NCBI RefSeq assembly: GCF_037101375.1
Contig: NZ_AP029019.1
Location: 558,001-622,000 of the forward strand
Source of the DNA: Acidovorax sp. DW039
GTDB taxonomy: Bacteria; Pseudomonadota; Gammaproteobacteria; Burkholderiales; Burkholderiaceae_C
Direction of reading: 5' to 3'
DNA: 64,000 bases
The notes beneath the pieces were generated by a model. It searched no databases, had not been told where the DNA came from, and saw nothing but the letters and a program-made list of their open reading frames with translations. Every line of letters starts with the position of its first letter. Position 1 is the first letter of the stretch. The translations under genes were made by a program, and so were the position numbers. This document shows positions 4,884 through 53,234 of the stretch, piece after piece.

Positions 4884-4975
4884 GCTCCTGCCTCCATGAA
4901 GGTCGGCAGAAAGCACTGCCATCGGAGTATTCATTAAAACAGGTTGTAACGCTTATGGATCCAGCGGAAGCAGCT

Positions 4976-5986
4976 ATGAAATATGTAGCGCCATCGTGGT
5001 TGCCTGGGGGGCAGCTTCAAACCATCTGGCCTGCGCTTTTTTCGCGGCGGACGAATGGGCCAGCCCCAGCCTACCAGCGGGAGCGTTGGACGACGCCCGA
5101 TCAAGACTTCATTGATGTGGACTTTGTGCTGCAGCAGGGCCCGCTTGCGCAAAGCTCTGAACAGCCTTTGCTGGTAGTGTTTCACGGGCTCGAAGGCTCG
5201 TCGCGAAGCCATTACTGCGAAGCTCTGGCCGAGGCTGCCCTGTCGCAAGGCTGGGCCTGTGCGATTCCCCATTTCCGAGGATGCAGCGGTGAAATCAATT
5301 GGGCTCCGCGCGCCTATCACTCGGGCGACTACGAAGAAATTGCCTGGATTCTGAGCAGGTTTCGCCAGCAGCACACCGGGCCCATCATCGCCGTGGGAGT
5401 ATCTCTGGGTGGAAATGCTTTGCTCCGGTGGGCGGCAGAGGCGGGAACTGCTGCGAGTTGCATGGTCAGTGCGGTTGCCGCAGTATGTTCGCCGCTGGAT
5501 CTGGCTGCGGGTGGACATGCCATAGGGCAGGGCTTCAACCGCTTGGTTTACACCCGCATGTTTTTGCAAACTATGGTGCCGAAAGCGCTGCGCAAACTGG
5601 AGCAGCACCCTGGCTTGTTTGACCGGGACGCATTGCTGGCTGCGCGTGATCTCTACGCTTTCGATAACGTTTTTACAGCCCCGTTGCATGGCTTCAAAAG
5701 CACGGAAGACTATTGGCAACGTGCCTCCTCCAAACCTCTTCTGAGACAAGTGCGAGTGCCTGCTTTGGTCCTCAATGCCCTGAATGACCCGTTTGTGCCA
5801 GCCGCAAGTCTTCCGGCGGCCAATGAAGTGGGAGATTGGGTGACCTTGTGCCAGCCCCGGCATGGAGGACATGTGGGTTTTGCGCAAGGGCCATGGCCTG
5901 GGCATGTCAAGCCCATGCCGGATGCTGTAGTGCGTTGGCTGACAGACCATGTGCCCCAAGGCGGCGCACAATCGCGGTATGGATGA
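4976..5986 (+). CDS. YheT-family alpha/beta hydrolase
   Basis: Predicted cytoplasmic alpha/beta-fold hydrolase of the YheT/EMB8 group, 336 residues from the ATG at 4976. The family N-terminus YVAPSWLPGGQLQTIWPAL follows immediately. The core contains LVVFHGLEGSS, the nucleophile elbow GVSLGGNALL (Ser), the acid-containing segment LNALNDPFVP (Asp) and RHGGHVGF with the catalytic His, so the triad is complete. GGAAG at 4966-4970 sits 5 nt before this ATG; an in-frame ATG at 4955 is the alternative start. The 3' end overlaps the next gene by 8 bp (ATGGATGA), indicating translational coupling. Its physiological ester substrate is unknown. Confidence 0.88.
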   Translation: MKYVAPSWLPGGQLQTIWPALFSRRTNGPAPAYQRERWTTPDQDFIDVDFVLQQGPLAQSSEQPLLVVFHGLEGSSRSHYCEALAEAALSQGWACAIPHFRGCSGEINWAPRAYHSGDYEEIAWILSRFRQQHTGPIIAVGVSLGGNALLRWAAEAGTAASCMVSAVAAVCSPLDLAAGGHAIGQGFNRLVYTRMFLQTMVPKALRKLEQHPGLFDRDALLAARDLYAFDNVFTAPLHGFKSTEDYWQRASSKPLLRQVRVPALVLNALNDPFVPAASLPAANEVGDWVTLCQPRHGGHVGFAQGPWPGHVKPMPDAVVRWLTDHVPQGGAQSRYG

Positions 5987-6503
5987 CATCGTCAAACAAG
6001 CGCTGGCCAAGTGGCCGCACGTGCCCGACTGCTATGGGTGGCTGGGGTTGGATGCCCGTGGCCGCTGGTTCATGCGGGATGACGCTACCCAGGCAGCAGG
6101 TGATTTCACGCACAGCCGGGGTTCATGGCTACGGCACGAAAAGCTCATTGAATTTATCGGGCGCAATTACGAACCCGACGGGGACGGGCGCTGGTTTTTT
6201 CAGAATGGTCCCCAGCGGGTGTACGTGGAGCTGGAATGCGCGCCATGGGTGTGGCGCATATCGCCAGATTTCGAGTTGGAGTCTCACACGGGCAAAGTCA
6301 CGTCTGCCGGTGCCTGCTGGCTGGACGAGCATGGACGGCTGTTCATAGAGTCCCCATTGGGTCTGGGCGTGGTTCACACTCAGGACATGGTATTGGCCGC
6401 TGAGGCCGTGGAGCGCGGCCTCTGGATGCCGGAGGAAACTACCTTTGCTTCACTGCCTGCGCAGTATCACTATGTGCTGAGCCCGGCAGCAAAGACGAGT
6501 TGA
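5979..6503 (+). CDS. Conserved betaproteobacterial protein of unknown function (DUF2944/DUF2946-type)
   Basis: A soluble protein of 174 residues beginning MDDIVKQALAKWPHVPDCYG. I recognise the opening from conserved hypothetical proteins of Burkholderiales; the DUF label is from memory and uncertain. Further conserved-looking segments are GWLGLDARGRWFMRDD, DGRWFFQNGPQRVYVELE and a Trp/Gly-rich C-terminal half. No catalytic motif, signal peptide or membrane segment is visible. Its start overlaps the end of the hydrolase gene, so the two are probably expressed together. Function unknown. Confidence 0.85.
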   Translation: MDDIVKQALAKWPHVPDCYGWLGLDARGRWFMRDDATQAAGDFTHSRGSWLRHEKLIEFIGRNYEPDGDGRWFFQNGPQRVYVELECAPWVWRISPDFELESHTGKVTSAGACWLDEHGRLFIESPLGLGVVHTQDMVLAAEAVERGLWMPEETTFASLPAQYHYVLSPAAKTS

Positions 6504-6596
6504 GTTAGACGGGTGCAGCGAAGCGGTGGAGTGGGGCTGGAACTGCCGTTGTACCTACAGCCTTTTTTTGCGAGCTTTATCTCTCATCGCACCAAT

Positions 6597-6627
6597 AAAA
6601 AAAGCCGGTACGCGTACCGGCTTTTTT
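6597..6627. terminator. Bidirectional terminator
   Basis: Perfect palindrome GCCGGTACG/CGTACCGGC at 6604-6621, flanked by an A-run on the left and a T-run on the right, so it can work on both strands. It lies between the rightward unknown gene and the leftward cytochrome gene. Confidence 0.92.
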
Positions 6628-6647
6628 GCTTGGATGAAATTCACATT

Positions 6648-7202
6648 TCACTTGGCTGCAGAGGCACCTGCGTCTGCTGGCGCTGCCGCAGCATCACCAG
6701 CGGCGGCAGGTGCTGCAGGCTCAGCGAACTTGGCACCTGCAGCGTTGGCCATATACACCACAGCCCGGGCAATTTCAGTGTCATTGAAATCCCCACCACC
6801 TTGGGGCGCCATGGCACCCTTGCCCTTCAGTGCGGACTGCACCAAGGCTTCAAAGCCGGTCTTGATGCGAGGGCCCCAAGCCGCTGCATCGGCATATTTG
6901 GGCGCACCTGCTGCCCCAGTAGCGTGGCATGCAGCGCACTGGCCCTTAAACACTTCTTCGCCTGCGCGCAAGGGGCGGTTGGCATCGCGCACCTCAACCA
7001 TGCCGACTTTCTGGATACGTTCAGCCAATGCCTTTTCGGGATTGACCGCACCTGCTGCAGGCTTGTTGCCAGAGGTCACGTACAGCACCAAGCCGATGAT
7101 CACAAAGATAGGCACCACGAACGAGAAAAATCCCGCGATCAGTAATTGCTTGGGGGTCTTGATCGGGCCTGTGTGCGCTTCTTCGTGGTGGTTGTCGCTC
7201 AT
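6648..7202 (-). CDS. Membrane-anchored c5-type cytochrome c
   Basis: A single-haem cytochrome c of 184 residues. A short hydrophilic N-terminus (MSDNHHEEAHTGPIKTPKQ) is followed by one transmembrane segment at about residues 20-42 (LLIAGFFSFVVPIFVIIGLV), then a periplasmic domain with the haem-binding CAACH in KGQCAACHATG, and an axial-Met region around GKGAMAPQGG. The tail is an Ala/Pro-rich low-complexity stretch. The frame is also open upstream of 7202, but MSDNHH is the natural start. It should shuttle electrons in the periplasm; the partner oxidase is not encoded nearby. It is monocistronic, ending at the bidirectional terminator. Confidence 0.9.
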   Translation of the reverse strand: MSDNHHEEAHTGPIKTPKQLLIAGFFSFVVPIFVIIGLVLYVTSGNKPAAGAVNPEKALAERIQKVGMVEVRDANRPLRAGEEVFKGQCAACHATGAAGAPKYADAAAWGPRIKTGFEALVQSALKGKGAMAPQGGGDFNDTEIARAVVYMANAAGAKFAEPAAPAAAGDAAAAPADAGASAAK

Positions 7203-7319
7203 GACGTCCTCTGGTGGATCGGGGGCTTTGTTGGAACTAACCAAAAATTATATCTGCGGGTCTCAGTTGCCGATATGCCAGCAAACTTGATTTCCCGCAA
7301 GTTATACACGTGAAGGCAC

Positions 7320-8732
7320 TCAGGGTTTACGCGAGGGCGTGTCTGCCTCCTCATTCCACCCACCTCCCAGTGCCTTGAACAGCGTCACCTGATTCTGCAG
7401 TTGGCCCAGACGAACCTGCACAACAGCTTGTTGTGTGCTGAAGAGAGAGCGTTGGGCATCGAGCAGGTCCAGGTAGCTGGCCACGCCGTTCTTGTAGCGC
7501 AGATCGGCAAGGCGGAAGCGAACAGATTCGGACTCGGCCTGCTGCTTTTGCGCCTCCAGCTGCTCGTTCAGCGTGCCTTGGCTCGCCAGCGCATCAGACA
7601 CTTCCCTGAATGCCGTCTGTATGCTCTTCTCGTACTGCGCTATCGCCAGTTCACGGGACACCTTGGCGCTGTCCAGATTGGCTTGGTTGGTGCCAGCATC
7701 AAACAGCGGCAACAGCATGGAGGGGGCAAGGGTGAAGCCCCACGATCCGTTCTTGAACAGACCCGAAAGCTCGCCACTGGCTGTGCCTGCCTGGGCTGTT
7801 AACGAAATTCTGGGGAAGAACGCGGCCCGGGCTGCGCCGATGTTGGCATTGGCGGCTTTCAGTTGCTGCTCGGCCTGGCGAATATCGGGACGACGCGTCA
7901 GCAGGTCAGACGGCAAGCCTGGGGGCAGTGGCTGAAGCAGGGGGGCACCATCCAGATTGTTGCCTGCCAGTGCTGCCTTGACTTCCGGAGGCAGTGACTG
8001 GCCCAGCAGCAGCACCAACGCATTCTCGTCCAGCGCCCGCTGGCGCTGCTGCTGTGCAAACGTGGCGCGTGCCGCTTGAGCCAGGGACTCCGCCTGGCGG
8101 AAGTCCAGCTCTGATGCGGCCCCGGAGTCGAGCCGCAATTTGGTCAGCCGGACGGATTCTTCGCGTGTGGCCAGCGTGCGGCGCGACAGTTCCAGAAGTT
8201 CTTCGTCGGCTAGCAGGTTGAGCCAACCGTTGGCTACGGCGCTGATCAGGCTCACCTGGGCCGCATTTCTTCCCTCTTCTGTCGCGAGATACTGGGACAG
8301 TGCCTGCTCTTTCAAGCTTGCAATGCGACCGAAGAAGTCAATCTCCCAGGCCGTCACCGCAAACCCCACGCTGAAACTGTTGGTCAGCTTGCCGGTGCCT
8401 GAGGCGGGGGCCCGGGACGCGTTGGCGGCCAGACCCACGGAGGGATATTCCGCCGCGCTGCGGATCTGAAATTGAGCGCGGGCCTGCTCCACGTTCAGGC
8501 TGGCAATGCGCAAGTCCCGGTTGTTCGCCAAAGCAATCTCAATGAGCTGCTGCAGGCGGGGCTCTGAGAAATACGTACGCCACTGTGGAGGCTGTGCCGC
8601 TGTGCTTGCCGAGGCTGCTCCGGGAAAGCTGTCGGGCACCGGCGCTTGAGGGCGCTCATAGGTGGGTATGAATGAGCAGGCCGACATCAAAGCGGCGGCG
8701 GCCAGCGTCAAGGGGGCCAGTTTCTTATTCAT
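7320..8732 (-). CDS. RND efflux outer-membrane factor (NodT/OprM family lipoprotein)
   Basis: Outer-membrane channel of the tripartite pump, 470 residues. The N-terminus MNKKLAPLTLAAAALMSACS carries a lipobox (LMSA-C), so the mature protein is probably acylated. Two OEP repeats follow, with typical segments TYFSEPRLQQLIEIALANN, LLTRRPDIRQAEQQLKAANA and YKNGVASYLDLLDAQRSLF. The start codon overlaps the acrB stop by 8 bp, so the genes are translationally coupled. Third and last gene of the acrA-acrB-OMF operon. It resembles OprM/TtgC; the exact orthologue cannot be named from sequence alone. Confidence 0.93.
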   Translation of the reverse strand: MNKKLAPLTLAAAALMSACSFIPTYERPQAPVPDSFPGAASASTAAQPPQWRTYFSEPRLQQLIEIALANNRDLRIASLNVEQARAQFQIRSAAEYPSVGLAANASRAPASGTGKLTNSFSVGFAVTAWEIDFFGRIASLKEQALSQYLATEEGRNAAQVSLISAVANGWLNLLADEELLELSRRTLATREESVRLTKLRLDSGAASELDFRQAESLAQAARATFAQQQRQRALDENALVLLLGQSLPPEVKAALAGNNLDGAPLLQPLPPGLPSDLLTRRPDIRQAEQQLKAANANIGAARAAFFPRISLTAQAGTASGELSGLFKNGSWGFTLAPSMLLPLFDAGTNQANLDSAKVSRELAIAQYEKSIQTAFREVSDALASQGTLNEQLEAQKQQAESESVRFRLADLRYKNGVASYLDLLDAQRSLFSTQQAVVQVRLGQLQNQVTLFKALGGGWNEEADTPSRKP

Positions 8733-11700
8733 GGGTTCCAATTCCTGCTTCTTGCGCGTGGCGACGGTTCATTTCCTGCTGGCGTGCACTGCCTTTGAAG
8801 ATGCTGCGCACTACAACAAAAAACACAGGGACGAAGAAGACCGCCAGCACCGTGCCGGTCACCATGCCGCCGAGCACACCAGTGCCAATGGCACGCTGGC
8901 TGGCAGAGCCAGCACCGCTGGCAATGGCCAGAGGCACCACCCCGAGGCCGAACGCCATCGACGTCATGATGATCGGACGGAACCGCAGGTGGGCTGCTTC
9001 CAGGGCGGACTCGATCACTCCCTTGCCCTGTGCCTGCAGGTCTTTCGCAAATTCAATGATCAAAATCGCGTTCTTCGCCGACAGACCGATGATGGTGATC
9101 AGACCCACCTGGAAGTACACGTCGTTCGCGTAACCGCGCATCAAGGTGGCCAGCAGCACGCCCAGAACACCCAGCGGAACCACCAGAATCACGGCCAGCG
9201 GAATGGACCAGCTCTCGTACAGTGCCGCGAGGCAGAGGAAGACCGCCAGAATCGCGAAGCTGTACAGAATCAGCGATTGCGCTCCTGCCAGCTTTTCCTC
9301 GCGGGACTGCCCCGTCCATTCAAAGCCGAAGCCCGCGGGCAACTGGCTGGCAAGCTTTTCCATCTCGGCCATGGCAGCACCTGTGCTGTAACCCGGTGCC
9401 GGGCTGCCCGAAATGCGCATGGCGGGATAACCGTTGTATCGCACGGTTTGTTGTGCGCCCTTGACCCATTTGGTCGTCGCAAAAGCAGACATCGGCACAG
9501 GCTTGCCCTGTGCGTTGCTGGCATTCAATCGCAGAAGGTCATCAGGCTGCATACGTGCCGGTGCATCGGCTTGTACCACCACGCGTTGCAAACGGCCTTG
9601 GTTGGGAAAGTCGTTCACGTAGCTGGAACCCAGCGCTGTGGAAAGTGCCGAGTTGATCGCATCAAAGGTCACACCCAAGGCATTGGCCTTATCGCGGTCA
9701 ATGTCGATTTGCAGCTGTGGCGCATCTTCCAGACCGTCAGGCCGTACCTGCGTCAGGACCTTGCTCTGCGAGGCCATGCCCAAAAGCTGGTTGCGCGCAT
9801 TCACCAATGCTTCGTGCCCTGCGCCGCTGCGGTCTTGCAGCCGGAAGGTGAATCCGCTGGCGTTACCCAGTTCTGGAATGGGAGGAGGGCTGAGCGGATA
9901 GATGAAGGCGTCGCGAATCCCCGACAGGCCGCCAAATGCCCGCCCTGCCACGGCTTGGGCCGAGCTCTCGGGGGCGTGGCGTTCGCTCCAGTCTTTCAGC
10001 GTCACGAATGCCAGGGCAGCGTTCTGGCCTTGACCAGAGAAGCTGAAACCCAGCACGCCCACCATGCTCTGCACTTCGGGTTGCTTCAGGATGAAGTTTT
10101 CCACTTGCTCCATGACCGCCAAGGTGCGCTCCTGCGTTGCACCCGGTGGCAACTGCACGTTCACGATGATGTTGCCCTGGTCTTCACCTGGGAGGAAAGA
10201 CGTTGGCAGTCGCAGGTAAACCACCGCCACGGCTCCGACAATCGCTGCGTAGATCACGAGGTAGCGCACAGCCCGTTTGAGCATGCGTGCAACCCAGCTT
10301 TCGTAGCCTTTGGCTGCCGTCGTAAAGCGCCTGTTGAACCATCCGAAGAATCCGGTCTTCTCGTGGTGATGGCCTGCTTCTACGGGCTTGAGAAGTGTTG
10401 CACAGAGCGCAGGTGTGAGCGACAGTGCCATGAAGGCGGAGAAACCGATGGAAGCAACCATCACCGCCGAGAACTGACGATAGATGTTGCCGGTGGAGCC
10501 GGAGAAAAATGCGAGCGGCACGAACACCGAGATCAGCACCACGGTCACCCCGATGATGGCGCCGGAAATCTGGCGCATGGCCTTGCGCGTGGCCTCTACC
10601 GGTGACAACCCTTCTTCGCTCATGATGCGTTCGACGTTCTCCACCACCACAATCGCGTCGTCCACCACGATACCGATGACCAGCACCATCCCAAACATGG
10701 TCAGCACGTTGATCGAGAAGCCCAGCGCCAGCAGCGTGGCAAAGGTGCCGAGCAGAGCAATCGGCACAACGATGGTGGGGATGACGGTGTAGCGCCAGTT
10801 CTGCAGGAACAGAAACATCACCAGGAACACCAGCACTACGGCCTCAAACAACGTCTTGGCAACCTGCTTGATGGAGATGTCCACAAAACGCGAGCTGTCG
10901 TAAGGAATGCTCCAGCTCATGCCCTGCGGAAAATACTTGGACAGTTCGTCCATCTTCACACGCACGGCCTTTGCGGCTTCCAGCGCATTACCGCTCGGGG
11001 ACAGCTGCACGCCAATGCCGACGGCGGGCTTGCCGTTGAGGCGGGCCGCGGTGGCATACGCCTGACCACCCAGTTCCACGCGGGCTACGTCCTTGATGCG
11101 CACTGTGGAGCCGTCTGCGTTGGCACGCAGAATGATGTTGGAAAACTGCTCTACGTTGGAAAGCTGGCCACTGACCACCACGGTGGCAGAGATGCCTTGA
11201 CCCGAGAGGTTGGGCAGATCACCAATCGTGCCGCTTGCCACCTGCGCGTTTTGGGAACGGATGGCCGCAGTGACGTCTGCTGCAGAGATGTTGAAGCTCT
11301 CCATCTTGGCTGGATCGATCCAGATGCGCATGGCTCGTTCGGTGCCGAAAAGCTGCGCCTGGCCAATACCGCTGAGCCGCTGAAGCTCAGGCACCACATT
11401 ACGTGATGCGTAATCGCCCAAGGCGACGGTGTCGGTCTTGGGGTCGCTGGACGAAAGCATGGTGAATAGCAAGAAGTTCGAGCGCGACTTGTCGACCCGC
11501 ACGCCTTGCTGGGTTACCGCGGAGGGCAGTCTGGGGCTCGCCCGCGACAGGCGGTTTTGTACATCCACCTGGGCCAAGTCGGCGTTGGTGCCTGGCTGAA
11601 AGCTGAGCGTGATGCTTCCGGAGCCGTCGGCCTGGGCCACCGATTCCATATAGATCAGCCCGGGGGAGCCGTTCATCTCCCGTTCGATGACGGAGAGAAC

Positions 11701-47460: not shown

Positions 47461-47520
47461 GCTATTGATCTAATAGCTGATTGCGCCTATCTATCAAGCG
47501 CTAGAGCCAAAAAATATCAA
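47461..47520 (+). repeat. Dispersed palindromic repeat copy overlapping the glcD stop
   Basis: GCTATT-GATCT-AATAGC hairpin, then TTGCGCCTATCTATCAAGCG and a terminal ATATCAA. The last bases include the reverse complement of the glcD stop codon (47517-47519). Confidence 0.75.
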
Positions 47521-49022
47521 AACCTTGGCAGATCCGGGTGCTTGATCTGCCCCCCGCGCACCAGCATCTTCCCGTACTCCGCGCAGCGGTGTAGCGTTGG
47601 AATCACCTTGCCCGGGTTCAGCAACCCCGCCGGGTCGAACGCGTTTTTGAGCCCGAACATCTGCGCGTTTTCCTCGGCAGAGAACTGCACGCACATGCTG
47701 CTCAGCTTCTCGATGCCCACGCCGTGCTCACCTGTCACCGTGCCGCCCATGGCCACGCTGGTTTCCAGAATGTCGGCGCCAAACAGCTCGCAGCGGCGCA
47801 GCTGGTCGGGGTCGTTCGCATCAAAAAGGATCAGCGGGTGCAGGTTGCCATCGCCCGCGTGGAACACGTTGGCGCAGCGCAGCTGGTACTTTTTCTCCAT
47901 CTCGGCAATGGCAAGCAGGATGTCGGCCAGGCGCTTGCGCGGAATGGTCGAGTCCATGCACATGTAGTCAGGGCTGATGCGCCCGCTGGCCGGAAAGGCA
48001 TTTTTGCGCCCGCTCCAAAAGCGCAGGCGCTCGGCTTCGTCGCGGCTCACGCTGATGGCGGTGGCACCTGCAGCGCGCAGCACCTCGCTCATACGGCCAA
48101 TTTCTTCTTCCACCTCTTCGGGGGTGCCGTCGCTTTCGCACAGCAAAATGGCTTCGGCTGTCAGGTCGTAGCCCGCGTGCACAAAGTCTTCCACGGCAGC
48201 GGTCATGGGCTTGTCCATCATCTCCAGCCCGGCGGGGATGATGCCTGCCGCAATCACCGCCGCCACGGCGTCGCCCGCTTTGCGCACATCGTCAAAGCTG
48301 GCCATGATGCAGCGCGCCAGCTGGGGCTTGGGGATCAACCTCACGGTCGCCTCAGTGGTCACGGCCAGCATGCCCTCGCTGCCGATCACTGCGGCCAGCA
48401 GGTCGTAGCCGGGCGTGTCCAGCGCCTCGCTGCCAAATTCCACGGCTTCGCCTTCGGCGGTGAACCCCTTGACTTTGAGCACGTTGTGCACCGTCAGCCC
48501 GTACTTCAGGCAGTGCACACCGCCGGAGTTTTCTGCCACGTTGCCGCCGATGGTGCAGGCGATCTGGCTGCTGGGATCGGGCGCGTAATACAGCCCGTAG
48601 GGCGCAGCCGCCTCGCTGATGGCCAGGTTGCGCACACCGCACTGCACCCGCGCCGTGCGGCTCACCGGGTCCACATCCAGAATGCGGTTGAACTTGGCCA
48701 GCGACAGCGTGACGCCTGCAGCGTGGGGCATGGCACCGCCCGACAAGCCTGTGCCTGCCCCGCGCGCCACCACTGGCACCTGCAGTGCATGGCAGGTTTT
48801 CAGCACGGCGGCCACCTGCTCGTACGTCTCGGGCAGGCACACCACCAAAGGCCGCTGTCGGTAGGCCGTGAGGCCATCGCACTCGTAGGGCGTGGTGTCT
48901 TCGCTGTGCCAGAGCAGGGCGTGCTGTGGCACCACGGCAGACAAAGCCTGCACCACGCGGTGCTGCAGCGTCTTCCGTTCTTCAGGGGATAGGGTGGGAT
49001 GTAGGGCGGTTTCGGTCATCAC
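47517..49022 (-). CDS. glcD: FAD-linked oxidase, glycolate oxidase subunit GlcD type
   Basis: A flavoprotein of 501 residues oxidising a 2-hydroxyacid such as glycolate or D-lactate. The FAD-binding_4 domain shows VVARGAGTGLSGGAMPHAAG, ACTIGGNVAENSGGVHCLKY and IGSEGMLAVTTEATVRLIP; the C-terminal FAD-oxidase domain shows FHAGDGNLHPLILFD and GTVTGEHGVGIEK. The GlcE and GlcF partners are not in the window, so activity as a GlcDEF complex cannot be confirmed. The stop codon lies inside a dispersed repeat. Start at either of two adjacent ATGs (49022, 49019). It follows the CPBP protease gene by 57 bp on the same strand. Confidence 0.9.
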   Translation of the reverse strand: MMTETALHPTLSPEERKTLQHRVVQALSAVVPQHALLWHSEDTTPYECDGLTAYRQRPLVVCLPETYEQVAAVLKTCHALQVPVVARGAGTGLSGGAMPHAAGVTLSLAKFNRILDVDPVSRTARVQCGVRNLAISEAAAPYGLYYAPDPSSQIACTIGGNVAENSGGVHCLKYGLTVHNVLKVKGFTAEGEAVEFGSEALDTPGYDLLAAVIGSEGMLAVTTEATVRLIPKPQLARCIMASFDDVRKAGDAVAAVIAAGIIPAGLEMMDKPMTAAVEDFVHAGYDLTAEAILLCESDGTPEEVEEEIGRMSEVLRAAGATAISVSRDEAERLRFWSGRKNAFPASGRISPDYMCMDSTIPRKRLADILLAIAEMEKKYQLRCANVFHAGDGNLHPLILFDANDPDQLRRCELFGADILETSVAMGGTVTGEHGVGIEKLSSMCVQFSAEENAQMFGLKNAFDPAGLLNPGKVIPTLHRCAEYGKMLVRGGQIKHPDLPRF

Positions 49023-49079
49023 CGCCGCACTGTAACGCCCGCAGGGCCGTTTGTGGGGGCGGGACGGGTTGAAGTTTCG

Positions 49080-49628
49080 TCACAGCCCACGTGACAAAAG
49101 TGCCAGGCTCAAGTTGAACCAGGCATGGGTGGCAATGCAGGCACCCAGGCTGCCACTGCGGCGCCACACCTCGGCCAGCGCCCAGCCCGGCACCAGCCAC
49201 CACAGGCAGTGCCAGCCATGGGCCGGGGCGTGGGCTGCGGCGAACGCCATCGCGGTCAGCGTGGTGGCGCCGTGCTCTGCAGACCACCGCCCCACCGCTG
49301 TACGCACTGCGGCCGAGCGGGGCCAGAATCTGCTGCGCAGTGGCGGACGCCACCGCTGCAGCCCCTCGTGCAGGCTGCTCTGCACCAGCAGCCGAAAGAC
49401 GGACTCTTCCAGCACAGGAGCCCCCAGCAGAACCCAAAGCCATGCCCCCGCTCCCGCAGGGCGCAGCCCCATTCCCAGCCAGTGGTGTGCCAGCCATGCC
49501 ACGGCTGCCGCAGCCGCCCACACTCCCGCCAGAAAGGCCAGCAACCGGGTGGTGAGTGGGCGCACCTGCCGCCCGGCGCTCAGGATCTGCGCCAAGGCGT
49601 TCAAGGGGCGTTGCTGAGTCAGTCTCAT
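49080..49628 (-). CDS. mrtJ: CPBP/CAAX-type intramembrane glutamic protease (MrtJ-like, JDVT-CTERM system)
   Basis: A multi-pass membrane protein of 182 residues in the ABI/CPBP family. All three active-site motifs are present: Glu74-Glu75 with Arg79 in PVLEESVFRLL, Phe129 and His133 in FAAAHAPAHGW, and His168 and Asn172 in HAWFNLSLALL. It lies 47 bp downstream of the CLCA-like gene, whose C-terminus looks like a JDVT-CTERM sorting signal. The established JDVT-CTERM scheme pairs such targets with a dedicated protease named MrtJ, so this is most likely the processing enzyme. Family and motifs are clear; the specific MrtJ assignment is inferred from context. Confidence 0.8.
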   Translation of the reverse strand: MRLTQQRPLNALAQILSAGRQVRPLTTRLLAFLAGVWAAAAAVAWLAHHWLGMGLRPAGAGAWLWVLLGAPVLEESVFRLLVQSSLHEGLQRWRPPLRSRFWPRSAAVRTAVGRWSAEHGATTLTAMAFAAAHAPAHGWHCLWWLVPGWALAEVWRRSGSLGACIATHAWFNLSLALLSRGL

Positions 49629-49675
49629 GGCATTTCAGGTTGCAGTTCTGCTGAGTCCTGTGCTGTCAGTGGCCC

Positions 49676-52099
49676 TCAGCCGCGATCTGCCTGGCGCAGA
49701 CGGCGGCGCAGCGCAGCGCCTGCCAGTGCCAGGCCCAGAAGTGCCAGCAGCGAAGCGTCGCGCCCATCAGGGTTGACCGTACAGCCACCACCGCCACTGT
49801 CGCCGCTGCCAGGGGTGGGTGTTGGCGTGGGTGTCGGGGTTGGTGTGGGTGTTGGCGTGCCGCCGGTACCCAGCACACCGGTGGCCGTGGCCTCCAGCGT
49901 GAAGGAGACCTCTGCCTCGCGCTGGAATGCTTCCACAGGCGTCTCTTCGGCGCGGGCGCCCTTGACCAGCGCACCCAGGCTGGCGATCACGGCAGAGCCA
50001 TCGTTGTTGGCTTCCACAATCGCGTAGTACTCGCCCGCCTTGAGCTTGTCCTTGAGCGAGACGGCGTACTCCCCGTCGCCTGCGCGCAGGTCTGGGGCCA
50101 CCCCGTCATCGCGCATCACCAGGTTTTCGAGCACAGCCTGGCCATCCTCGTTGTAGACCGTGGCTCGCACCGTAGCGCCCTTGATACGCTTGTCAGAGGC
50201 CAGCGTCGCGCGCAGGGTGGGGGCGGTGTTGACGGTGGCCAGCAGACCGCCGGTGACCTCGCCATTCAGGGCCAGACGGGACGCGCTGCTCACATCCACA
50301 CTCAGGCCATCCACCATGGCGGCATTGCTGGTCGCCTTCAGCGTCCATACGCCGTTGCGGCCCGACACCTCGGTACCGATGGTGGCTACGAACACGCCTT
50401 CTGCGGCGTCCAGCTCCATGTCGATGCCAGCCGGTGCATTGGCGGGAGTGAATACGCGGCCATCGGGCGCCGTCAGGCTGAAGCTGAGCTTCTTGGCATC
50501 CGATGGATCAAAGTAGCTTTCGACATCGACGGCGCCATCCAGCGCAGCGCTGGCGATGCGGAACTTGGTGCTGAAGCTGCCGTTGGCTGCAAGCGCGTCA
50601 GAACCATCCAGCCGCACCGATGCAATGGCCTTGGCATGCACTTCGTTCAGTGCGCGGGTCACATCCTTGGCGGCTTCTGCGCCGTTGCGGGCCGAGTTGT
50701 ACGCGCCGCCTGTGAACTGGGCCAGTTGTGTCAGGTTCACCGAAGCGCCTGCCTTGGACTGGAGCACTGCCGTCTTGGCGCGCATGGCGCGGGCCTCTGG
50801 CGTGCCGCCCGTCAAGCCCAAGGGATTCACCGCGATACGAGCGGTCTTGGCGGTGGATGCAGCTTCTGCTGGCACCTGGGTTTCGGAACCGGTGAGCAGG
50901 TGCAGTGTGGCAGGGTCGCCCGCCTGGCGCGCGGCGCCAATCAGCTCATAGGCCTTGGTGAAGGCGGTGAGTGCGTTGAACGTGCCCGCTGTATCGGCCT
51001 GAATCGCATCGAGTGCCGCTGTCAGCGTCTGCTTGCCTGCGGCATCTGCCGTAGTGAACGCTGCTACAGGTTCGTTTCCTGTAGCAGGAGACGCCACGAT
51101 GGCGAACTGGGTGTTGGCTGCGGCTTGGCCAATCAGGGTCTTGGCGGCCTGCATCAGGTCTGCCAGGCGGGCTGCTGGCAGCGTACGGTCCACCACGATC
51201 ACGTCGCGGAACACGGGCGCCGGGGCAAAGATCAGCTTCAGGTCGGCATCAAACCCGGTGGTGGGGCGGGTGAGGTTCAGTGTCTTGGGGTCGATGCCGC
51301 GGAACGCCTCGAAGAATGTACGCCCCTGGCCGCGGGCCACTTCGGGGTCTTGTTCGGGTGGGCGCGTCAGCATTTCCCAGGCGCTGCCGCCGGTGCCGTC
51401 GCTTTGCGTGGCCATCATGCGGGCCTGGGCGGTTTTGCGTTCAGCGGGGTTGGTGTAGTCGGCGGGGGTTGAGAACGACACGAACTCCAGGTGGTTGTTC
51501 ATGGCCGTGTTTTTGGGCGTGTCTTCGCCAGACGGGCTGCCTGGGTCGCTGGGCTTGAGGGCTGCACCCGCCTCCACATACTCGTCGTACAGGCCGTAGG
51601 TGTAGTGGCCCAGTTCGTGGTTGATCACCTTGCCCAGGGCGTCAATGCTTTCAAAAGCGCCGCTGTAGGCCAGGTAGTTATAGGAAGTCTGGCCGCGCGT
51701 GCCCCAGCCGGAAATGTTGGCTGCCGAGCGGTCGGACTTGTTGATCATCCGGATATCGACGTTGTTGCCGAATTGTCCGTTCTTGTAGATGAACACGTTG
51801 CCCAGGCGGTGGCGGCCTTCCGTGGCGGTGAACTTGCTTCGGGCCACGGTGCGGATCACCTGGGTGATGTAGGCCCGGTCCAGCAGCTGACCAGGGTTGT
51901 CCTGTTGCGTGGGCGGATTGTCGTAGTCCCAGTCCACGTTCACCACGTAATCGATGATGTTCACATCACGCACAGTGGTGAGCGGGTGGTTGGCCGCCTG
52001 GGCGGTCATGTAGGGCTGAATGGCCATGGTGGCAGCCAGTGCGGCGGCCACAACGCGCTTCAGGGTAGGGCGCTGCAGGCCCGGGGTCATGCTTTTCAT
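49676..52099 (-). CDS. Secreted CLCA-like metalloprotease/VWA protein with C-terminal JDVT-CTERM-type sorting signal
   Basis: A protein of 807 residues. Signal peptide at residues 1-36 (cleavage near TAQAA-N). The N-terminal domain has the zinc-protease motif HELGH at 161-165 followed by YGLYDEY, as in animal CLCA proteins (HExxH...DEY). A VWA-like domain starts about 298; its metal site is degenerate (IVVDRT instead of DxSxS). A beta-sandwich (SFSLTAPDGRVF ... GRNGVWTLKATS) and an FnIII-like domain (GATVRATVYNEDGQAV, LVMRDDGVAPDLRAGDGEY) follow. A Thr-Pro linker (748-763) leads to GGGGC (Cys773), a hydrophobic helix and RRR. AAGGAG 8 nt upstream fixes the ATG at 52099. It forms an operon with the downstream CPBP protease. 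Confidence 0.85.
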   Translation of the reverse strand: MKSMTPGLQRPTLKRVVAAALAATMAIQPYMTAQAANHPLTTVRDVNIIDYVVNVDWDYDNPPTQQDNPGQLLDRAYITQVIRTVARSKFTATEGRHRLGNVFIYKNGQFGNNVDIRMINKSDRSAANISGWGTRGQTSYNYLAYSGAFESIDALGKVINHELGHYTYGLYDEYVEAGAALKPSDPGSPSGEDTPKNTAMNNHLEFVSFSTPADYTNPAERKTAQARMMATQSDGTGGSAWEMLTRPPEQDPEVARGQGRTFFEAFRGIDPKTLNLTRPTTGFDADLKLIFAPAPVFRDVIVVDRTLPAARLADLMQAAKTLIGQAAANTQFAIVASPATGNEPVAAFTTADAAGKQTLTAALDAIQADTAGTFNALTAFTKAYELIGAARQAGDPATLHLLTGSETQVPAEAASTAKTARIAVNPLGLTGGTPEARAMRAKTAVLQSKAGASVNLTQLAQFTGGAYNSARNGAEAAKDVTRALNEVHAKAIASVRLDGSDALAANGSFSTKFRIASAALDGAVDVESYFDPSDAKKLSFSLTAPDGRVFTPANAPAGIDMELDAAEGVFVATIGTEVSGRNGVWTLKATSNAAMVDGLSVDVSSASRLALNGEVTGGLLATVNTAPTLRATLASDKRIKGATVRATVYNEDGQAVLENLVMRDDGVAPDLRAGDGEYAVSLKDKLKAGEYYAIVEANNDGSAVIASLGALVKGARAEETPVEAFQREAEVSFTLEATATGVLGTGGTPTPTPTPTPTPTPTPGSGDSGGGGCTVNPDGRDASLLALLGLALAGAALRRRLRQADRG
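49812..49859 (-). repeat. Tandem hexamer tract encoding the Thr-Pro linker
   Basis: Eight imperfect repeats of ACN-CCN code for (Thr-Pro)8 between the ectodomain and the sorting signal of the CLCA-like protein. Such tracts can change length by slippage in 6-bp steps without breaking the frame. Confidence 0.85.
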
Positions 52100-52331
52100 C
52101 GTCGAACTCCTTGCGGTCAATACACGGAAGGAGGGCGCTGCAGCGCAGCGTTTGTATCAACGCCTGGCGCCTGCGGCTGTGCTTTTCAGCACGTGATTTC
52201 CCTCTCCTGCGCGGAGTATCTGCAGGCCAAAAAGAATGGCAACAAAAAAGTGCGCAAGTGCACGCCAACCTTTTTTCTTGACTGGAACGGTGCGTCTGTC
52301 CAGTGGGCAGGGGGGCAGAGGGCTCGGTTGC

Positions 52332-53234
52332 TCAGAGTGTGGCCTTGAGCCACTGCGCAAAAGCCGCGCATTCCCAGCGCTCCATGGCACCTGCGCGCCA
52401 GCACAGGTAGTGCGCGTGGGGACTGTGGGCGTCCGTGGGAAAGAGTCGCACCAGGGTGCCGTGGTCCAGCCATGGCGCACCCAGCTTCAGGCGCACCAGC
52501 GCCACCCCCATGCCAGCAGCGGCGGCATCGCACATCAGGCCAATGTCGTTGAACTGCGAGCCTTCGCTGGGCTCTGCCCAGTCCAGCCCGCTGACGGTGA
52601 ACCAGGTGCGCCAGGGCTCCAGCGGGCTGCGCAGCAGGGGCAGGCCTTCCAGGTCTTCCGGGCGCTCAAACGGGCCGTGTTCGCGGATGAAGGCGGGTGA
52701 GGCGAGGGGCGTGACCACGTCGCGGGCCAGCTCCACATGCTCCACATCGGCATAGTGACCCGGCCCAAAGCGCACCATGAGGTCAGCATCCTCGGCCACC
52801 ACGTCCAGCAGCGGAATCGAGACTTGCAGGGCCAGGTCGATTTCGGGGTAGGCCTCGGTGAATTGCCGCAGGCGCGGGATGAGGATGGTGCGCGCAAAGG
52901 TGGGCGTCACGGCCAGCTTCAGCCGTCTGCGGCCGGGCGCCGTGGCTTCACCGGGGAAACGCTGCAGTGCCCCCAGGCCTTCGCGCACATGGGCCAGGTA
53001 GGCGCTGCCTTCCGTGGTGAGCGAAAAATCCGCCCGTCCGAACAGGCGCACGCCCAGCATCTGCTCCAGTTGCTTGACGCGGTGGCTCACGGCGCTGGGC
53101 GTGACGCACAGCTCATCGGCAGTCTGCGTCACGCTGCGCAGCCGCGCCAGCGCCTCAAACGTCAGCAGGCACTGGATGGGCGGAATGCGCCGGGCGGCGC
53201 TGCTGAGCAAGGAGGCTGCAGCGGTGGTGGCCAC
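52332..53234 (-). CDS. LysR-family transcriptional regulator (GcvA-like)
   Basis: A regulator of 300 residues. The N-terminal helix-turn-helix is RSVTQTADELCVTPSAVSHR with VKQLEQMLGVRLFGRA; the effector domain has LAVTPTFARTILIPRL, DVVAEDADLMVRFG and SQFNDIGLMCDAAAAGMGVA, typical of the GcvA subgroup. The start is GTG at 53234, as no ATG fits. The target is unknown; it lies on the same strand as purU upstream and the CLCA-like gene downstream (232-bp gap that should contain the latter's promoter and shows nothing else). Confidence 0.88.
   Translation of the reverse strand: MATTAAASLLSSAARRIPPIQCLLTFEALARLRSVTQTADELCVTPSAVSHRVKQLEQMLGVRLFGRADFSLTTEGSAYLAHVREGLGALQRFPGEATAPGRRRLKLAVTPTFARTILIPRLRQFTEAYPEIDLALQVSIPLLDVVAEDADLMVRFGPGHYADVEHVELARDVVTPLASPAFIREHGPFERPEDLEGLPLLRSPLEPWRTWFTVSGLDWAEPSEGSQFNDIGLMCDAAAAGMGVALVRLKLGAPWLDHGTLVRLFPTDAHSPHAHYLCWRAGAMERWECAAFAQWLKATL

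Follow-up and report, generated by a model that had tools for sequence, protein, structure and literature searches.

A 64,000-nucleotide stretch of Acidovorax sp. DW039 (NZ_AP029019.1, positions 558,001 to 622,000; hereafter the window) carries, at 49,080 to 52,099, an exported CLCA-like protein that ends in a JDVT-CTERM sorting signal (the target) and, next to it on the same strand, an intramembrane protease of the CPBP/Rce1 type. It is well supported that this clade of proteases and this family of targets co-occur, and do so only where the cysteine-containing tail is present. The two genes probably form a surface-sorting cassette that would work, by analogy, like the JDVT-CTERM/MrtJ and MYXO-CTERM/myxosortase systems, and the pair is most likely a compact version of a known, poorly understood route for fixing proteins at the surface. 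What the original prediction observed in the DNA is confirmed, and its interpretation as a self-contained sorting signal and protease is partly supported: the two are kept together in 11 of 13 tailed loci, but the protease is not MrtJ by the curated model. The features discussed below are as follows.

49676..52099, minus: target coding sequence, exported CLCA-like zincin/VWA protein with JDVT-CTERM tail, 807 aa (sequence and hidden Markov model, HMM)
51995..52099, minus: N-terminal signal sequence, residues 1-35, ending MTAQA before ANHPL (read by eye)
51578..51619, minus: zincin motif HELGHYTYGLYDEY, residues 161-174, fitting the CLCA consensus HExxHxxxGxxDEY
50630..51217, minus: VWA-fold domain, about residues 295-490 (sequence match and predicted model)
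50009..50116, minus: choice-of-anchor X domain NF041940, residues 662-697 (37.8 bits, cut-off 25)
49811..49858, minus: Thr-Pro linker, residues 748-763 (sequence)
49700..49798, minus: JDVT-CTERM sorting signal, residues 768-800: Gly-rich segment, Cys, hydrophobic helix, Arg cluster (HMM)
49781..49783, minus: Cys773, sole cysteine of the target (sequence and alignment)
49629..49675, no strand: intergenic gap between target and protease, 47 bp (sequence)
49080..49628, minus: CPBP/Rce1-type intramembrane protease, 182 aa (HMM, motifs, tree)
49392..49409, minus: EExxxR motif, EESVFR, residues 74-79, without Gly after the Arg (sequence)
49230..49244, minus: FxxxH motif, FAAAH, residues 129-133 (sequence)
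49113..49127, minus: HxxxN motif, HAWFN, residues 168-172 (sequence)

The tailed target and its protease

The target C-terminus reads (TP)8-GSGDSGGGGC-TVNPDGRDASLLALLGLALAGAALRRRLRQADRG. The succession of Thr-Pro linker, GGGGC, helix and Arg cluster had been taken for the layout of a JDVT-CTERM signal, and the corresponding model (NF033191) agrees, at 35.5 bits against a cut-off of 27 (E 6.7e-9); the MYXO-CTERM model gives 16.5 bits, below its cut-off of 20. A predicted model places a helix, with middling confidence, at residues 782-806. The tail pattern is matched in 80 of 87 homologues, 46 of which have exactly one cysteine, and G772, C773, D781 and R798 are invariant in all 26 homologues aligned. 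Among the seven homologues that do not match the pattern, the tail is visible by eye in P0076 and P0088, P0082 has a different end, and P0077, P0078, P0090 and P0093 seem truncated or frame-shifted. Five of nine tailed relatives scanned score below the JDVT-CTERM cut-off. Because Cys773 is the only cysteine of the window target, any thiol modification of the protein must be on this residue.

The description of the target as CLCA-like also stands, in that the HExxHxxxGxxDEY motif and a VWA fold were found, although CLCA_N was not matched. The strict motif is present in 79 of the 87 homologues. The Pfam VWA match is 19.3 bits, under the cut-off of 23.8, and a PDB sequence search returned VWF A domains and one other chain at E 0.004-0.03. 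HMM scans with Pfam CLCA_N and NCBIfam TIGR00868 gave no match in the window target; TIGR00868 matches weakly in four of ten relatives. The protein thus shares motif and VWA with the CLCA metalloproteases (human CLCA1 and bacterial CLCA), and differs from them in having a JDVT tail and no Pfam CLCA_N match. In its accessible text, a bacterial survey of 2013 (PMC3650047) records CLCA_N in alpha-, gamma- and deltaproteobacteria, with CLCA_X alone extending to betaproteobacteria as well. The ATG start, preceded by AAGGAG at 52107-52112, is preferred over an alternative TTG at 52120 that would give 814 residues; a low-confidence helix in the predicted model (residues 11-26) lies within the signal sequence.

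That a CPBP protease with complete EExxxR, FxxxH and HxxxN motifs lies 47 bp away is borne out by the coordinates, the motifs and the Rce1-like Pfam model PF02517 (40.4 bits, cut-off 22.4). A PDB sequence search with the protease profile gave no match at E<=1, and the best Foldseek result (E 1.0) was an unrelated structure. No terminator-like site was found in the 47-bp gap, a weak negative; target and protease probably share one transcript.

In this genome (5.22 Mb in two contigs) the pairing is one to one, which does not hold in all relatives. The absence of a second such tail, first remarked for the window, extends to the whole genome: at E<=1e-3, with every candidate scored, the JDVT-CTERM model (54 of 54) and the MrtJ model (20 of 20) each match once. 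Relaxing the threshold to E<=10 adds three JDVT-CTERM matches of 12-14 bits, which are no better than noise, since 12 of 14 control genomes also match at that level. Two other sorting systems were considered and rejected: the exosortase model TIGR02602 has no match in the genome, and the single rhombosortase match (38.2 bits) falls below the cut-off of 84, this model having matches in all 14 control genomes too. The secretin of a type II secretion system (T2SS) is present.

Conservation of the pairing and its relation to MrtJ

A scan of genome contigs with the target alignment gave 17 loci (labelled L below; genomes are labelled G). In two the DNA ends inside the target (L144, L146), two have neither Cys tail nor, in the DNA read, a CPBP protease (L151, L158), and the remaining 13 have the tail together with downstream DNA. 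In 11 of the 13 the target is followed on the same strand by a protease that carries EExxxR and HxxxN, directly in nine and after one gene in two (L149, L159); at L150, L156 and L157 the first in-frame start codon of the protease overlaps the target stop by 4 bases. The exceptions are L148 and L155, and the bin that holds L148 contains a second target with a protease (L157). At homologous loci without a Cys tail, a clade protease was found in none of three. Chance adjacency is rejected by this linkage together with the tail-less controls. It should be noted that certain loci are closely related (L149/L159, L153/L154) and that L152 is the same-genus genome G020. Distances among targets, taken without the tail, correlate with those among proteases (r 0.83 for 14 pairs; r 0.65, p 0.0026, for 10 pairs), a correlation that shared descent alone could explain.

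A survey of 399 genomes of the family points the same way. At least seven have a target at E<=1e-20, and in at least five of these the protease profile matches at E<=2.3e-34, well ahead of the next genome at 4.8e-22; at E<=1e-8 the protease profile matches at least 52 of the 399, so that the weak range includes other CPBP proteins. These counts, like those for the order below, are lower bounds because only part of the candidates was scored in most genomes (in the window genome, G000: JDVT-CTERM 18 of 54 and MrtJ 12 of 20 for the order, target 2 of 10 and protease 9 of 151 for the family), and one search scored only the 7,998 candidates with most shared words. Nor is the survey independent of the 17 loci: judged by tail sequence or length, at least G467, G484, G687 and G749, and probably G513, occur in both, and the profile alignments contain rows from several. 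In G513 the target lies at the end of one contig and the protease close to where another begins. In G484, whose target is tailed, the protease match is distant and unlinked (E 1.8e-16). G442 (L166, L168) carries two tandem CLCA-like copies without a C-terminal tail, and no protease-profile match at E<=1e-8 was among its candidates scored.

The suggestion of a one-enzyme, one-substrate system is therefore sustained in the window genome but fails as a rule: G467 has two targets and one protease, and in G051 at least five JDVT-CTERM proteins and one MrtJ exceed the cut-offs, so that several tails per MrtJ also exist. Two CLCA-like targets with one clade protease found were seen both in G467 and in the bin of L148 and L157, where the protease may serve the unlinked second target as well.

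Two side observations concern the loci themselves. The gene that separates target from protease at L149 (7554-8316) and L159 (7578-8350), in Paracidovorax wautersii and an uncultured Acidovorax, encodes a secreted-looking protein. At L151 (Halothiobacillaceae), the CLCA-like homologue (4941-7322) and another protein close by (9503-11680) have tails that are rich in Gly, contain no Cys and look, by eye, like GlyGly-CTERM; one sorting system may have been exchanged for another within this protein family.

Comparison with the curated families had been proposed as a check, and only its first half came out as expected: the target is above the JDVT-CTERM cut-off, whereas the protease is below that of MrtJ. 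Among NCBIfam families the protease matches the MrtJ model (NF033192, an equivalog) best, with 44.8 bits against a cut-off of 75; the myxosortase core model Mrt_core (NF040914) gives 23.6 bits, below 100. The proteases of the linked loci behave alike, for in the ten of 11 that were scanned (L159 was left out) MrtJ is always the best family and the score, at 38.5-72.3 bits, always under the cut-off. A tree of 48 rows unites the 14 paired proteases in a single group (support 94/98), which adjoins the 16 MrtJ rows (84/92) and is separate from the 18 generic CPBP rows (94/89). Gly directly follows EExxxR in 16 of 16 MrtJ rows and 13 of 18 generic rows, and in none of the 14 paired rows. The tree was made without L120 and L123 (both MrtJ over the cut-off), L025 and L138, with L024 left out by the trimming rule; three rows labelled MrtJ score under 75 bits (L130 74.5, L131 59.3, L132 57.4), and the generic rows were chosen from weak matches to the MrtJ model. 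We thus regard the paired proteases as a probable sister clade of MrtJ; the support is good, though some branches are long and it is not conclusive. Among 399 genomes of the order, at least 16 have JDVT-CTERM and at least 15 MrtJ over the cut-offs, with both in at least 13.

Proposed mechanism and competing explanations

In the scheme that we favour, the target would be exported by the Sec system, as its signal sequence suggests, and would be held in the inner membrane by the tail helix. Cys773, just outside the helix, would then receive a modification, most likely a lipid, from an enzyme whose gene lies elsewhere, after which the neighbouring glutamic intramembrane protease would cut next to the modified cysteine and so remove the helix and the Arg cluster. 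The T2SS might carry the folded target across the outer membrane, and the new anchor would keep it at the surface. Cleavage, lipidation and localisation are proposed here on the analogy of myxosortase. Experimental evidence for the related MrtX is reported in an mBio paper (PMC11980579), on the accessible text of which we draw here and below: MrtX cleaves the MYXO-CTERM tail of TraA, needs its two adjacent cysteines and is active in E. coli. The remark that such systems are known mainly from sequence accordingly no longer applies to CPBP sorting as such. One small enzyme with a single-cysteine substrate is a simple test case for the anchoring of such Cys-tailed proteins.

The nearest alternative is that the pair is an ordinary MrtJ/JDVT-CTERM pair whose low protease score reflects a narrow model, the clade having no separate identity. 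MrtJ is, after all, the top family for the window protease and for every clade member scanned, the tree places the group beside MrtJ, and the tail of the target exceeds its own cut-off. The separation of the paired group and the missing Gly after EExxxR argue against it; tree supports below 95 and long branches keep it a possible, if doubtful, explanation. It is much harder to sustain that the tail does no more than anchor the target permanently in the membrane, and that a housekeeping CPBP protease happens to be encoded next to it. Besides the sub-threshold score, one might cite how widespread matches to the MrtJ model are at E<=1e-3, most of them below the cut-off, with at least 130 of the 399 genomes of the order having them; but the linkage in tailed loci, its absence at tail-less homologues, the single group formed by the paired proteases and the correlated divergence make this very improbable.

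A different question is whether the protease might act alone, as a sortase-like enzyme that cuts the tail and either transfers the new end or modifies the cysteine, with no separate lipidation enzyme. The genes flanking the pair, a LysR regulator and an FAD-linked oxidase, include no modifying enzyme, and the mBio authors leave a dual-function MrtX possible while judging it unlikely (PMC11980579). Against this, the related endopeptidases Rce1 and MmRce1 act on proteins whose cysteine a different enzyme has already lipidated, and a widespread lipidating enzyme would explain both the missing partner gene and the activity of MrtX in E. coli (PMC11980579). We consider the single-enzyme scheme unlikely. 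There is similarly little to recommend a broader idea, in which the paired proteases are a CPBP sorting family of their own that co-diverges with one CLCA-like surface metalloprotease, has no need of a dedicated modifying enzyme and may itself not only cut the tail but also generate the surface anchor at the single cysteine.

Known systems and the genomic site

The two-gene arrangement itself is not new: PMC11980579, citing Haft 2024, describes MrtJ and a single JDVT-CTERM protein as conserved neighbours that occur sporadically in beta- and gammaproteobacteria. The window pair resembles that system, as it is described there, in having one tailed protein beside one CPBP protease with the same motifs, in its sporadic occurrence in betaproteobacteria and in a tail above the JDVT-CTERM cut-off; it differs in its sub-threshold, sister-clade protease lacking Gly after EExxxR, and in that the targets of this clade seen here belong to one CLCA-like family. 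MYXO-CTERM/MrtX of the Myxococcota likewise combines a tripartite tail with an invariant cysteine and a CPBP protease, but there one enzyme has dozens of targets, 35 in M. xanthus (PMC11980579). GlyGly-CTERM/rhombosortase also has a tripartite tail and T2SS-linked surface display, but the enzyme is a serine rhomboid and the tail has no cysteine. In the literature on JDVT-CTERM, MrtJ, betaproteobacterial CLCA and choice-of-anchor domains, a search that did not include Haft 2024, a clade with a CLCA-like target was not among the matches listed, and within that literature the sister clade appears to be new. Since the curated MrtJ cut-off misses all ten members scanned, and the JDVT-CTERM cut-off narrowly misses five of nine scanned tails, current counts of such systems are probably too low. 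Other CPBP proteases were also seen near GGC-tailed proteins of other kinds (L176, L184, L186, L187, L190, L191, L192, L195, L200).

The pair lies between the FAD-linked oxidase (47517-49022) and the LysR regulator (52332-53234). A JDVT-CTERM tail over the cut-off occurs in three of 36 genus genomes searched (G000, G022 and G034), and that of G020 is just under it at 22.2 bits; in all four the pair is at this site. In 16 of a further 17 same-genus loci LysR stands next to the oxidase; in G002 it is absent from this place. Ten of the 16 have less than 350 bp between the two genes, two have a UvrD-like helicase there and four an acetyltransferase, one helicase and one acetyltransferase having been checked with Pfam and the rest by eye. 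The gap, 49023-52331 in the window, is thus a variable site in the genus (empty, or occupied by helicase, acetyltransferase or the pair), and the comparison indicates that the pair was gained or lost at one site. The G+C content across the pair (0.61-0.70) is like that of the surroundings, and a recent mobile insertion is not supported. Relative to the window, the target is 95-96% identical and the protease 84% in G022 and G034; in G020 the values are 66% and 44%, with LysR, the oxidase and the next gene at 90-93%. The protease therefore changes faster than its target.
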